Assembly: GCA_904394215.1 (NCBI GenBank)
Contig: CAJFNF010000002.1
Coordinates: forward strand, 25,146-89,145
Origin: an uncultured Faecalibacterium sp.
GTDB taxonomy: Bacteria > Bacillota > Clostridia > Oscillospirales > Ruminococcaceae
DNA: 64,000 nt
Direction of reading: 5' to 3'
In this document: positions 32,179 through 37,408 of the stretch, in pieces
Position numbering within the stretch: position 1 is the first letter of the stretch
How the letters are laid out: each line of letters starts with the position of its first letter
The notes under the pieces: generated by a model
What the model saw: the letters and a program-made list of their open reading frames with translations, nothing else
Told to the model about the DNA's origin: nothing
Databases searched by the model: none
Position numbers and translations under genes: made by a program

Positions 32179-32847
32179 ATGCAGTACAAAATTCTCATGG
32201 TGGAGGACGACCCGGTGATCCGGGAGCAGCTCCAGCTTCTGCTGGCCGGCAGCGGCTACCAGGTGGAGACAGCCGGGGACGCTGCGGCGGCCCTGGCCCG
32301 GATGCAGACCTTTGGGCCCCACCTGGTGGTGCTGGACATCGGCCTGCCGGGGGCCAGCGGGTTCGAGCTGTGCTCCCAAATCCGGGCCTTCTCCCAGGCG
32401 CCCATTGTCTTTGTCACCAGCAGCAATACCGATCAGGACGAGCTGACCAGCATCCTGCTGGGAGGTGACGCCTTCATCACCAAGCCCTATCGCCCGGCCA
32501 TCCTGCTGGCCAAAATTGCTGCCCTGCTGCGCCGGGCTTATCCCGATGCGGGAGAGGAGTCCCTTTGCTGGAAGGGTGTGGTGCTCCACCCTGAAAGCGG
32601 CAGACTGGACTTCCAGGGCCAGACCGTGGAGCTGACCCGCAACGAACAGAAAATCCTCTGGTACCTGTTCCGGCACGCCGGGACCATCTGTGCCCGGGCG
32701 GATTTGGTTGACTTTCTGTGGGATAACCAGCTCTACATCGACGACAACGCCCTCAGCGTTCACATCAGCCGCATCCGGGAAAAGCTGGCCTCCATCGGGC
32801 TGACCGGTTTCATCCAGACCAAACACCGGCAGGGGTATCTGATATGA
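32179..32847 (+). CDS. OmpR/BceR-like response regulator
   Basis: MQYKILMVEDDPVIREQLQLLL; winged helix C-terminus; in bce-like gene order. Confidence 0.9.
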   Translation: MQYKILMVEDDPVIREQLQLLLAGSGYQVETAGDAAAALARMQTFGPHLVVLDIGLPGASGFELCSQIRAFSQAPIVFVTSSNTDQDELTSILLGGDAFITKPYRPAILLAKIAALLRRAYPDAGEESLCWKGVVLHPESGRLDFQGQTVELTRNEQKILWYLFRHAGTICARADLVDFLWDNQLYIDDNALSVHISRIREKLASIGLTGFIQTKHRQGYLI

Positions 32848-33851
32848 TATACTGGAAAGATCACCTTCCTGCGGTACTGCTGAACCTCTTGGGCCTGACG
32901 GCGCTGGCGCTGTTTCTGCTGGCAGGGGGCAGCAGCCCCGGAACCGTTTTGCTGATCGCTGCCGTCTGGCTGGGCGTGCTGGCGGCGTGGCTGGCGGTCG
33001 GCTGCCTGCTGGAACGGCGGCGGTTAAGCGCTTTGCTGACCCAGGCGCAGCAGCTGGAAGAGCGTTATCTGCTGCCCGAGGTGCTGCCTCCGCCCGCGAC
33101 AGCGGAAGAGGCAGTATACCGCCGTTTGATGCAGATGGCGGAAAAATCCATGCTGGAAGAGATTGCTGCCGCCCGGCGGGAACACAAAGCATATCAGGAA
33201 TACATCGAACAGTGGATTCATGAAATCAAGACCCCCATCACCGCCGCAAAACTGTTCTGCGAGAACCATCCCGGCGCCCCATCCCGTGAGATACTGGCCC
33301 AGCTGGAGCGCATCACCCACTACACCCAGCAGGCCCTCTACTATGCCCGCAGCGAGCACACCGAGAAGGATTCCCTGATCCGGGAAACCCATCTGGTACA
33401 GGTGGTTCACCAGGCCATTGCAGAGAATAAATATCTGCTGCGCCAAAATCAGGTGGAGGTCCTTGTGGAGCAGATGCCCAGCGTTGTTTACACCGACGAT
33501 AAATCCCTCTGTTTTATCTTAAGCCAGTTGATCGGCAACGCGGTCAAATACCGGACCGCCGCGCCCCGGCTGCGCTTTGCCGCAGAGTCAGGGCCGGGAC
33601 AAATCTGCCTTTTGGTGGAGGACAACGGTCTCGGCATCCCGGCGGCGGATCTGCCCCGGGTGTTTGAAAAGGGCTTTACCGGACAAAACGGCCGCACCGT
33701 CCACAGCTCCACCGGGATTGGGCTTTACCTTTGCAAACGGCTGTGCGACAAGCTGGACATCGGGCTGGAAATCACCTCCCGGGAAGGAGCCGGCACCACC
33801 GTCCGGCTCGCGTTCACGGTCAACGATGCCATTGCCAGCGTGCGCAGATAG
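32844..33851 (+). CDS. BceS-like intramembrane-sensing histidine kinase
   Basis: Two TMs with a very short loop, EYIEQWIHEIKTPITAAKLF H-box, GIGLYLCKRLCDKL. Confidence 0.9.
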   Translation: MIYWKDHLPAVLLNLLGLTALALFLLAGGSSPGTVLLIAAVWLGVLAAWLAVGCLLERRRLSALLTQAQQLEERYLLPEVLPPPATAEEAVYRRLMQMAEKSMLEEIAAARREHKAYQEYIEQWIHEIKTPITAAKLFCENHPGAPSREILAQLERITHYTQQALYYARSEHTEKDSLIRETHLVQVVHQAIAENKYLLRQNQVEVLVEQMPSVVYTDDKSLCFILSQLIGNAVKYRTAAPRLRFAAESGPGQICLLVEDNGLGIPAADLPRVFEKGFTGQNGRTVHSSTGIGLYLCKRLCDKLDIGLEITSREGAGTTVRLAFTVNDAIASVRR

Positions 33852-33870
33852 AATCTAAACCCTCCGGGTT

Positions 33871-34312
33871 GCGGTGCCCTGTTTTTGCTGCGGGCCGCAG
33901 GAGCGCCCTTGCAAAAAACAGACCGCGTTCCTCTTGCGCTTAGCCAATTTTCCCGGCGGGCGGCGGAGCGCCCTTGTGAAAATTGGAGCGCTGCTCCGGG
34001 TTGCCGTTGACCAAATATGCAGCGCGGGTCGCCGCCCGCTTGCATATTTGGACGGCTGCCCCTGCTCCGCTTCGCCTGTTTCTGCCGCAGGCAGCGGCTC
34101 AGCTACGCAGCCAACAACAGCTCCCTGTTTCGTCCACCGGACGCGGTCGCCGCCGCTGCCCCTGCTCCGCCTCGCTGCATCTGCCGCAGGCAGCGCTCGG
34201 CTGCGCAGCCCACCGCCCTTTTAGCGGAGTCTCCAGTCCGTGGCTGCGCTCCCTCGGCCGGGGCTGGCATGGCTATACGAAACAGTCGCGGGCTCAGCAG
34301 GCAAATGCCAGC
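33871..34312. repeat. GC-rich tandem hairpin array plus about 57-bp direct repeats between bceS-like and bceA-like genes
   Basis: Arm pairs 33879-33888/33911-33921, 33944-33952/33978-33986, 34011-34021/34041-34051, 34263-34270/34305-34312; direct repeat 34055-34112 and 34155-34210. Confidence 0.85.
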
Positions 34313-34437
34313 AGGAACGTAAATCCGCGAGATAGTCCAGGCTCTGCCTGGTCTTTCATTTTTGTAAGAATTGCGCAAGAAAACCCGATACACTCCGGCC
34401 CGGAAATCCCGTACAATGGAGCCAGAGGTGAAATCAC

Positions 34438-35205
34438 ATGAAGGAAATACTCAGGCTGGAACATATCCAAAAGATGTATGGCACCGGCGGCAGCATCACC
34501 AAAGCCATCCGGGACATCAGTTTCACGGTGGAGGAAGGGGAGTTTGTGGGGATCATGGGGGCGTCGGGCTCGGGCAAGACTACTCTGCTGAACTGTATCT
34601 CCACCATTGACAGGGTGAGCGCCGGCCACATTTACCTGGACGGCCAGGATATCACCGAGATACGCCCCAAAGACCTGGCCCGGTTCCGCCGGGAAAAGCT
34701 GGGCTTTGTGTTCCAGGACTTTAACCTCCTGGATACCCTGACCATTGGGGAAAACATCGCCCTGGTGCTGGCCATTAACAAGACCCCGCCCCGGCAGGTG
34801 GAACCCATGGTCCGGGCCATGGCCCAAAAGCTGAACATTCAGGGGATTCTGGAAAAATATCCCTACCATGTGTCGGGTGGCCAGCGGCAGCGGTGCGCCT
34901 GCGCACGGGCCCTGATTCATGGGCCCCGGCTGTTGCTGGCCGACGAGCCCACCGGCGCCCTAGACAGCCACTCGGCCCAGATGCTTTTGAATACCTTCGA
35001 GGGCATCCATGAGGATCTGGGGGCCACCATTTTGATGGTAACCCACGATGCCTTTACCGCCAGCTACGCCGGGCGGATTCTATTTTTGCGGGACGGCGAA
35101 ATCTTCACCGAGCTGCGGCGGGGCGGCGAGACCCGGGCCGCCTTCTTTGAGAAGATTCTCCAGGTGCTGGCCATGCTGGGAGGAGGCGGGCAGGATGTAC
35201 GCTAA
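34438..35205 (+). CDS. BceA-like ABC transporter ATP-binding protein
   Basis: GASGSGKTTLLNCIS, VSGGQRQRCACARAL, LLLADEPTGALDS. Confidence 0.92.
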   Translation: MKEILRLEHIQKMYGTGGSITKAIRDISFTVEEGEFVGIMGASGSGKTTLLNCISTIDRVSAGHIYLDGQDITEIRPKDLARFRREKLGFVFQDFNLLDTLTIGENIALVLAINKTPPRQVEPMVRAMAQKLNIQGILEKYPYHVSGGQRQRCACARALIHGPRLLLADEPTGALDSHSAQMLLNTFEGIHEDLGATILMVTHDAFTASYAGRILFLRDGEIFTELRRGGETRAAFFEKILQVLAMLGGGGQDVR

Positions 35206-37408
35206 ACTGATCCTCCGCAGCGCCCGGCGCTCGGCCCGGGATTATCTGGTCTACATTCTTACCATGACCATCTGTGCGGCCCTGTTTTATGGGTTCTTGT
35301 CCATTTCCAGCCGGTTTTATCAGCCGGACATTGGGGCTGAGTATAATTACTCGATGCTCAGCGACGGCATGAAAATGGCCATCTGCGGCGTAACCCTCCT
35401 GCTGCTTTTTTTGATCCGCTTTGCAAACCGCTATATGCTTCGCAGCCGCCAGAAGGAATTTGCACTGGAGGCTGTGATGGGAATGGAGCAGCGAACCATC
35501 GCCCGGCTGTTTTTCGCCGAGACCCTTCTGATGGGCGGCATCGCGGTTTTGCTGGGGATCGGCCTGGGGGCGGTGTGCTCCCAGTTTGTCACGGCCCTGC
35601 TGCTGACCAGTTACGACCAGGCCTATCGCCCGGTGTGGACCCTCTTCCCGGATACCGTCCTCTGGACGGCGGGCTTTTTCCTGATGAGCTTTCTGGCGGT
35701 GGGGCTGTTCAATACCCGCACCATCCGCCGGACCCCCATTCTGTCGATGCTCTCAGCCCAACGGGAAAACGAAACGCCCCTTCAAAAAAGCCGCTGGATG
35801 CAGGGAGTGGCCGCCTTGTACCTGGTGCTTGCAGCGGCGCGTGCAGTCCAGGGAGTGCGGCTACTGGCCCAGTATGGGGACAGTCGCCTGGCCCTGCCGG
35901 TGCAGATAATGTTCTGGGCCAACATTCTGGCCCCGGCGGGGCTGCTGGTCTGGGCCGCGGTTTGGGCGGCCCGCCGCCGGAAATGGCGCTTCCCGGTTCT
36001 GGTGCCGGGGCTGACCATAGGGGCGCTGCCCTGTATCCTGTCGGCGGTCAGCTTGCCGGTGCTCCAGCGGCGGTATATGCTGGGCCTCGGGGCAGAATGG
36101 GTCAACCAATGGCTGGTGTTTCTGCTGGCAGACCTGCTGTTTTTGCTCTGCGGGGTGATCTGGCTGGCCAGCGCCCTGCTGGCCTGGCGCAAAGACCACA
36201 GCCCTGATTGCCGTTACCAAGGTACCAACCTGTTTTACTTCGGACAAATGGTGTCCAAGCTCCGCACCACCAGCAAGACCATGGCCCTGGTGAGCATCAC
36301 GCTGGTGCTGTCGGTATTTTTGTTTGCGGCGGCGCCGGTGCTGGCGGGCTGGGCCAACGGCTATCTGGAAGCCCGGGCTGTCTACGACATCCAAATCTAT
36401 TCCAGGTACAACGATGTGCGGGAAATATCCGCCCTGCCCCAGGGGGATTATGACGCAGTTACCCGATTCCTCGATGAAAACGGGGTCGACACCACCGCCG
36501 ACTGTACCTTCTCCCTCTATCTGCCCCGGCAGGAGGACTTTTACAGCCGGGTGAAATACGACTTTCCCACGGCAGCCATCTCCCTCAGTGATTACAACGC
36601 CCTGCGGGCCATGCTGGGCCTTGCGCCGGTGACCCTGGCAGAAGGGGAGTTCACCACCCAGTGGAAGGCCATTGCCACGGAGGAGGAGCGGGAGGCCTTT
36701 CTGGCAGCCCGCCCCGCAGTGGATACCGATGCCGGCACCCTGGCCCTGGCGGCGCAGCCCTGCTACACTGACCCGATGGGAGAAACCTTTTACAACAGCT
36801 ATACCGATGTGGTGTATGTGTTCCCGGATGCAGTCTGTGAACAGCTCCTGCCGGTGATGCGGTGCCGGTACATCAGGACTGGCGAGCCTTTGGACTACGA
36901 GACTGCCCGGGCCCTGGAACAGCTCTTTGCAGATTCTTACCCCGAGCGGGCCCCCGGCGGGACCGAGTATGCCATCCGCCTGCGGACGCTGCAGGTCAAC
37001 AGCACCCGGGCCAGTACCTTTGTACTCCAGGCGTCTCTGCTCTACGGGGCGGTGGTGCTGATGGTCATCTGCCTGACCGTTCTGTCTTTGCAGCAACTTC
37101 TGGACGCCGGGCAATACCGGTACCGCTTTTCGGTGCTGCGGAAACTGGGGGTGGAGGAAACCGAAATCTGCCGCCTGGTGGTGCGTCAACTGGGCTTCTG
37201 GTTCGGCCTGCCGGTAGGGACCGCCGTTGTGACAGGCGCAGCCGCTGTGGGCTGCCTGTTGGCGGCGGTGCAGGCAGAGATCCAGGCTTATATCGGATTC
37301 GGCGCACTTGCAGTTCAGCTGGGCATGACCGCATGCATCCTGTTGGTTCTTCTGGGGTGCTATTTTGTCAGCACCTGGGCACTGTTCCAACGGGCCATTG
37401 AGTCATAA
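35195..37408 (+). CDS. BceB-like FtsX-family ABC permease
   Basis: ATG at 35195 overlapping the ATPase; multi-TM permease with large extracytoplasmic domain, RQKEFALEAVMGMEQRTIARLFFAETL. Confidence 0.9.
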   Translation: MYAKLILRSARRSARDYLVYILTMTICAALFYGFLSISSRFYQPDIGAEYNYSMLSDGMKMAICGVTLLLLFLIRFANRYMLRSRQKEFALEAVMGMEQRTIARLFFAETLLMGGIAVLLGIGLGAVCSQFVTALLLTSYDQAYRPVWTLFPDTVLWTAGFFLMSFLAVGLFNTRTIRRTPILSMLSAQRENETPLQKSRWMQGVAALYLVLAAARAVQGVRLLAQYGDSRLALPVQIMFWANILAPAGLLVWAAVWAARRRKWRFPVLVPGLTIGALPCILSAVSLPVLQRRYMLGLGAEWVNQWLVFLLADLLFLLCGVIWLASALLAWRKDHSPDCRYQGTNLFYFGQMVSKLRTTSKTMALVSITLVLSVFLFAAAPVLAGWANGYLEARAVYDIQIYSRYNDVREISALPQGDYDAVTRFLDENGVDTTADCTFSLYLPRQEDFYSRVKYDFPTAAISLSDYNALRAMLGLAPVTLAEGEFTTQWKAIATEEEREAFLAARPAVDTDAGTLALAAQPCYTDPMGETFYNSYTDVVYVFPDAVCEQLLPVMRCRYIRTGEPLDYETARALEQLFADSYPERAPGGTEYAIRLRTLQVNSTRASTFVLQASLLYGAVVLMVICLTVLSLQQLLDAGQYRYRFSVLRKLGVEETEICRLVVRQLGFWFGLPVGTAVVTGAAAVGCLLAAVQAEIQAYIGFGALAVQLGMTACILLVLLGCYFVSTWALFQRAIES

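Follow-up and report, generated by a model that had tools for sequence, protein, structure and literature searches.

A self-nesting two-hairpin repeat in Faecalibacterium and its relatives as a candidate mobile DNA element

Described repeats closest to the element

REP sequences of Escherichia coli carry an unpaired motif at the foot of the hairpin together with a conserved bulge in the stem (PMC8266576), and they are defined by an unpaired GTAG or CGTC tag at that foot (PMC3733652). The repeat described here comes from a 64,000-nt stretch of an uncultured Faecalibacterium genome (contig CAJFNF010000002.1, positions 25,146 to 89,145; hereafter the window). It resembles the REP/BIME/REPIN sequences with their RAYT (TnpA-REP) enzymes in being a dispersed intergenic palindrome, in the mosaics formed by its stem classes, in combining a bulge with a foot motif, and in its absence from genes. 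It differs in that the richest hosts lack a Y1 transposase, each element has two different hairpins, the order of hairpins is nested rather than alternating, and there is a niche at tRNA genes. Its foot motifs are CTCTT or CNNGTT, and the GTAG or CGTC tag was not found there. IS200/IS605 insertion sequences and their small derivatives share with this element two unlike subterminal hairpins with a short leader motif at each foot. They insert without target duplication, and none was seen here in pairs of empty and filled sites; unlike in IS200/IS605, no transposase gene lies between the hairpins in any copy seen, and no fixed target tetranucleotide was found in these pairs.

BOX elements of Streptococcus pneumoniae consist of modules in series (boxA-boxB(n)-boxC). 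They too are modular, structured, non-autonomous intergenic repeats of variable module number, but the modules here, a first (H1) and a second (H2) hairpin, are nested as H1x H1y H2y H2x instead of following one another. RtT repeats, found in the tyrT tRNA operon of E. coli, are tandem units that each hold a copy of a tRNA gene end, and tandem units with a tRNA gene end also occur here. Unlike RtT, to which Rfam gave no sequence or structural match, tRNA ends of either kind, 5′ (nt 1-22) as well as 3′, are involved here, in many tRNAs and genera, and always with the same antisense two-hairpin element. For two-hairpin elements, for self-nesting and for the fixed tRNA junction, we found no precedent in the open literature searched.

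Architecture and nesting

The earlier note had reported three consecutive hairpins in the window. An architecture scan recovers exactly these three in the version with a 3-nt bulge, each with a 5-bp outer stem, the bulge on the 5′ side and an inner stem (Table 1), while 10 shuffled windows gave 0 to 2 matches with any bulge size. The hairpin observation is confirmed, and the interpretation given to it partly supported. Where the bulge of unit a was counted as 4 nt, it is GCC, and the extra nucleotide is a single A in the 3′ arm. An apical stem lies inside what was described as a GC-rich loop, so that the shared loop core GGAGCGCCCTTG is mostly stem. The arms, said to differ completely, do vary while staying paired, but those of b and c have CCAA in common. 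Hairpin c has a strong folding energy, hairpins a and b only a modest one (z about −2.2); the real evidence for the hairpins is compensatory change between copies, not folding energy.

On the right of the last hairpin, a linker of pattern [TG]GC[GC]CC joins H1 to H2, and the 150 nt on that side carry three matching second hairpins in reverse order, which were overlooked earlier. The full unit of about 115 nt is leader, H1, linker and H2, and each hairpin reported before is an H1, the left half. The three hairpins are left halves of elements nested in one another, rather than like units in tandem, and the right halves follow them in the window, in the order H1a-H1b-H1c-H2c-H2b-H2a, with c within b within a.

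Table 1. Parts of the nested array in the window
Feature	Position	Strand	Sequence or remark
Leader of element a	33863..33870	+	TCCGGGTT, class CNNGTT; missing at empty sites (AAACCC^GCCC), present at filled sites
H1 of element a (outermost)	33871..33926	+	GCGGT-GCC-CTGTTTTTGC...GCAAAAAACAG-ACCGC
Junction a/b and leader of element b	33927..33935	+	GTTCCTCTT; identical linker in other a-b and c-a arrays
H1 of element b	33936..33991	+	GCGCT-TAG-CCAATTTTC...GAAAATTGG-AGCGC; 85.2 bits with model R1
Junction b/c and leader of element c	33992..34002	+	TGCTCCGGGTT
H1 of element c (innermost)	34003..34056	+	GCCGT-TGA-CCAAATATGC...GCATATTTGG-ACGGC; z −6.0
Linker of element c	34057..34062	+	TGCCCC; covaries with leader class
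H2 of element c	34063..34112	+	Core CTGTTTC-TGCC-GCA-GGCA-GC at 34076-34095
H2 of element b	34113..34157	+	Core 34125-34144; outer arms AACAACAGC/GCCGCCGCT mismatched
H2 of element a	34158..34210	+	Core 34175-34194
Right half of older dispersed repeat	34211..34232	+	ACCGCCCTTTTAGCGGAGTC; left half AATCTAAACCC at 33852-33862; intact copies elsewhere

H1 has an asymmetric internal loop at its base (TT opposite NGC) and that loop again, inverted, below its tip, as read from an alignment of congeneric copies (A7, see below). H2, rather than being H1 inverted, consists of variable outer arms around CTGTTTC, 4 bp, a three-base loop, 4 bp and GC. Elements fall into two classes, a with leader CNNGTT and linker xGCCCC, and b with leader CTCTT and linker xGCGCC; unit c of the window is also in leader class a. 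Leader base −3 covaries with linker base +4 (CTT with xGCGCC in 96 cases, GTT with xGCCCC in 37, with 2 clear exceptions), and this single pair, leader C or G with linker G or C, closes H1 externally, being paired in 36 of 36 elements of the alignment from other genera (A8). In the window, H2 of element b has a 5′ arm of one H2 subtype (AACAACAGC) and a 3′ arm of another (GCCGCCGCT), with loss of pairing, and looks either recombined between copies or decayed. Element a appears to have been inserted into an older dispersed repeat whose halves flank it (AATCTAAACCC/ACCGCCCTTTTAGCGGAGTC).

The array does not resemble CRISPR, with its identical direct repeats and unique spacers: the repeat scan returned diverged families only. 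No Rfam family matched the element above its gathering score. A separate dispersed repeat (CATGGCTATACGAAACAGTCGCGGGCTCAGCAGG...CGCGAGATAG) lies outside the hairpin element at 34265-34352, with copies at loci L027, L028, L032 and L041. The surrounding genes (32179-37408) all run in one direction and encode a response regulator, a histidine kinase, an ABC transporter ATPase and an FtsX permease, with the array between kinase and transporter; the set looks like a peptide-sensing resistance module.

A home-made parser that recognises H1 and H2 of classes a and b found 64 single copies of the form H1b-H2b and 14 of the form H1a-H2a in the host and congeneric genomes. All 15 unambiguous multi-copy arrays in these genomes were nested (H1x-H1y-H2y-H2x) and none had the serial order H1x-H1y-H2x-H2y, although some composites may be mutual copies or have spread as units, so that independent nesting events would number fewer than 15. 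The nested set comprises twelve plain doubles, two within longer runs, and the window triple; two further arrays, ambiguous under the class rule, stand outside the 15. The nesting point is the H1/H2 linker. In every parsed array the gap between H1 and H2 is either the 6-nt linker or a nested copy, with tnpA absent there, and a search among unpaired hairpins for an autonomous, gene-bearing copy turned up none. Nor do the parsed arrays resemble integron attC sites, as the hairpins abut or nest with no cassettes between them. At locus L261 (1695-2016, Faecalibacterium prausnitzii APC923/51-1), three near-identical tandem H1 units recur with a period of 128, with H2 truncated in the first two.

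Covariation and distribution

Two-sided changes occur at 25 of the 37 pairs (160 cells overall) in A7, whose 28 full elements come from at least ten congeners, and the covariation score is 0.418 compared with 0.132 for shuffles and at most 0.073 for slid structures. A8, with 36 elements from other genera, was fitted to the model and is hence biased towards it; there the changes reach 32 of 37 pairs, with a score of 0.585 compared with 0.143 shuffled and at most 0.11 slid. This covariation in congeners and other genera, together with covariance-model searches of the kind proposed earlier, which found further loci of the same architecture in the host genome and relatives, strongly supports two earlier suggestions, that these are a family of small palindromic elements and that structure rather than sequence is conserved. 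None of the contrary outcomes named beforehand (no further loci, no covariation, randomly diverging arms) occurred.

For the Faecalibacterium copies, the suggestion of an RNA-structure array finds no support. H1 mismatches on the read strand comprise 38 A.C and 27 G.T, so there is no preference for that strand as RNA and G.U is not favoured; distant copies, with 30 A.C and 15 G.T, show a weak preference for the opposite strand. None of 87 blocks falls inside a gene predicted by a simple home-made caller based on codon usage. Orientation in gaps between tandem genes is even (24 sense, 22 antisense, 1 mixed), and 31 blocks lie in convergent and 9 in divergent gaps. Orientation, mismatches and gene avoidance favour a role at the DNA level for the intergenic copies.

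In the host genome (G000; 2.42 Mb in 88 contigs), the 206-nt array as query gave 51 matches, as singles, pairs and longer arrays, and R1, a covariance model of class b hairpins covering H1 only, gave 76 H1 matches; the palindromes are dispersed between genes and form mosaics, as in REP/BIME. R1 matched 17 of 25 genomes of the genus and none of 16 other families. The genus-limited family that this H1-only model suggested was overturned by a full-element model (R2), with matches in 58 of 197 genomes and 32 of 110 genera of the order, at 1 to 9 copies in each of the 57 genomes other than the host. A pattern scan of named genomes added, among the matches listed, Faecalibacterium, Gemmiger, Oscillospiraceae, Ruminococcus, Eubacterium and other Clostridia records. 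The genomes are mostly drafts or metagenome assemblies, the gene caller, parser and tRNA matching are home-made scripts, and copy counts are not event counts.

Insertion sites and tRNA genes

Four genomes (G010, G019, G001 and G013) have no array in the orthologous intergenic region, where G024 carries a reversed class b element (L091). Empty copies of the host repeats were identified for 27 element sites, the cleanest being AAACCC^GCCCACC (filled in L126, empty in L125) and AAACCC^GCCCGCC (L121). The ends of an insertion can be placed only to within one or two bases. No target duplication was seen at these pairs of filled and paralogous empty sites; the right flank often starts with (G)CC and the left flank is variable. 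Several insertion sites fall between two adjacent palindromes, as does the H1/H2 linker itself.

Among the matches listed, 58 of 135 fetched pattern elements have a tRNA within 600 nt, and outside Faecalibacterium the element is antisense to the tRNA in 57 of these 58 tRNA-proximal copies. Two arrangements occur. In the 5′ type, nt 1-22 or 1-23 of a tRNA (Leu, Pro, Ser) are found as their reverse complement at the element end, which in the tRNA sense gives promoter, tRNA(1-22), element in reverse, short spacer and complete tRNA; in single units the fragment lies 151-206 nt upstream of the complete gene, and in 14 of 16 tRNA-Leu copies the match ends exactly after nt 22. The 3′ type begins with a complete tRNA and its terminator and continues through an antisense tRNA piece and the element to a second tRNA 3′ end. 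Tandem units were found at tRNA-Ser (L193), tRNA-Pro (L199), tRNA-Asn (L198) and tRNA-Leu (L228). Direct repeats of the tRNA end flank the distant copies and are absent at the Faecalibacterium intergenic copies. A reading of the tRNA loci as long target duplications was rejected, leader similarity being mostly only 2-13 nt, tandem units excepted.

Within Faecalibacterium, low-copy species have a tRNA near 4 of 15 copies, all antisense, and G000 near only 4 of 64 H1 units, in mixed orientation; copy-rich species have lost the tRNA link, and their copies lie between other palindromes. Descent from a tRNA-linked ancestor, with escape in some Faecalibacterium species, gives the simplest history. 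At locus L200 (1080-1470 and 3590-3860), stacked palindromes that repeat the tRNA 3′ end in both inverted and direct form (GGGATTTGAA / CAAATCCCATTCCTCGCAC) follow tRNA-Leu genes, which suggests other hairpin elements at tRNA ends.

Candidate enzymes and competing explanations

The dispersed Faecalibacterium copies and the tRNA adjacency across the order point to a mobile element. We judge it rather probable that the element, about 115 nt long with two covarying hairpins, is mobile but non-autonomous DNA, inserting at hairpin junctions through an enzyme whose presence we infer. A trans-acting recombinase would recognise the folded single strand, whose left end is H1 and whose right end is H2, and would insert it at junctions of DNA hairpins, including the tRNA D- and T-arms and the H1/H2 linker of older copies. 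Badly folding copies would stop moving, so that pairing is kept only in the moving lineage while arms drift through compensatory change; in some Faecalibacterium species the element would have left the tRNA niche and multiplied between genes. Simple insertion does not account for the duplicated tRNA ends, which could reflect site-specific recombination or another mechanism and count against this reading. More tentatively, and with somewhat less than even confidence, these two-hairpin DNAs of about 115 nt, common throughout a single order of gut Clostridia, may form a mobile-element class not described before, which inserts at hairpin junctions, tRNA arms included (there exactly after nt 22), leaves the tRNA working by duplicating its end, nests in the H1/H2 linker of its own copies, and is moved by a structure-reading enzyme in trans.

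Against the mobile-element reading stands the negative enzyme search, which covered Y1 transposases and one type of integrase. PF01797 (Y1/RAYT) had no match in G000, in a search that does match in an E. coli control; it was also absent in seven hairpin-rich congeners (G014, G016, G023, G003, G024, G021 and G012), and in G013 it is a fragment with a stop. Within the genus it occurs mostly in hairpin-poor species and it is present in 10 of 20 distant hosts, so Y1 transposases do not track the element. The element has no room for a gene, hence no integrase of its own. No transposase was evident in open reading frames read by eye at L195 and L200, each with two copies several kb apart. A prophage-like contig (IMGVR_UViG_3300024303_000169; L327 4575-6060, L328 9700-9830) has two sites where copies of the element lie inside tRNA-Pro 3′ ends, and a tyrosine integrase gene (PF00589) adjoins one of these sites, as if the element-bearing tRNA site were the attachment site. 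The integrase as an obligatory neighbour was ruled out, its relatives lying near only three of the fetched loci (two besides L327).

That the hairpins act in a precursor transcript of tRNA operons, in processing, attenuation or stability, with the Faecalibacterium expansion derived and possibly useless, is an unlikely alternative. It would account for the single orientation in 57 of 58 tRNA-proximal copies among the matches listed, and for the sole clear promoter, seen by eye at L258 and L256, which precedes the tRNA(1-22) fragment so that the element would be co-transcribed with the tRNA; mismatches of distant copies also read as G.U on the tRNA-sense strand in 30 cases versus 15 on the reverse. 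G.U pairs are nevertheless very few overall, the intergenic Faecalibacterium copies have no orientation bias, presence is patchy (58 of 197 genomes), and Rfam holds no relative. We give slightly less credence still to a minimal integrative satellite, in which tyrosine integrases of tRNA-targeting prophages or integrative elements would mobilise in trans an attP-like cassette, about 165-205 bp long, made up of the element and a tRNA end. Direct repeats of the tRNA end flank the element like attL/attR, units have accreted in tandem at one tRNA (L193, L198, L199, L228), and the prophage-like contig, with its two tRNA-Pro copies and an integrase gene 253 nt from one, fits as well; but integrases are near few loci, the intergenic Faecalibacterium copies lack the tRNA end, and the duplicated end matches the local tRNA, as that of a travelling cassette would not.

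Ordinary REP/BIME sequences moved by RAYT (a Y1 HUH transposase) would explain small intergenic palindromes in mosaics with an unpaired foot motif and a conserved stem bulge, yet this is very improbable given the lack of PF01797 in G000 and nearly all hairpin-rich congeners, the missing GTAG or CGTC tag, and an H2 that is not an inverted H1. Chance or assembly artefact has a negligible probability: many copies do lie near contig ends of draft genomes, but the same architecture occurs within long contigs and in a single-contig genome (G138), covariation is strong, and independent genomes already refute it.

If the mobile-element reading is true, a structure-recognising recombinase that has gone undescribed is active in one of the major groups of bacteria in the human and animal gut. 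Free arms with a fixed fold, self-nesting and a precise tRNA position make the mechanism testable with sequence data and in vitro. The element accounts for many intergenic repeats of Faecalibacterium and probably for contig breaks too.

Fast intergenic turnover is visible at L027 (1250-2322 and 5184-6624) and the syntenic loci L163-L180, where the same intergenic gap measures 87 bp in G001 versus about 1.4 kb of mixed repeats in G000; repeat families in the G000 gap include GGTACCAG..AAAAGTCTTTTGCCTACTTTTC and ATCTAAACCC..GCCCTTTTAGCGG.
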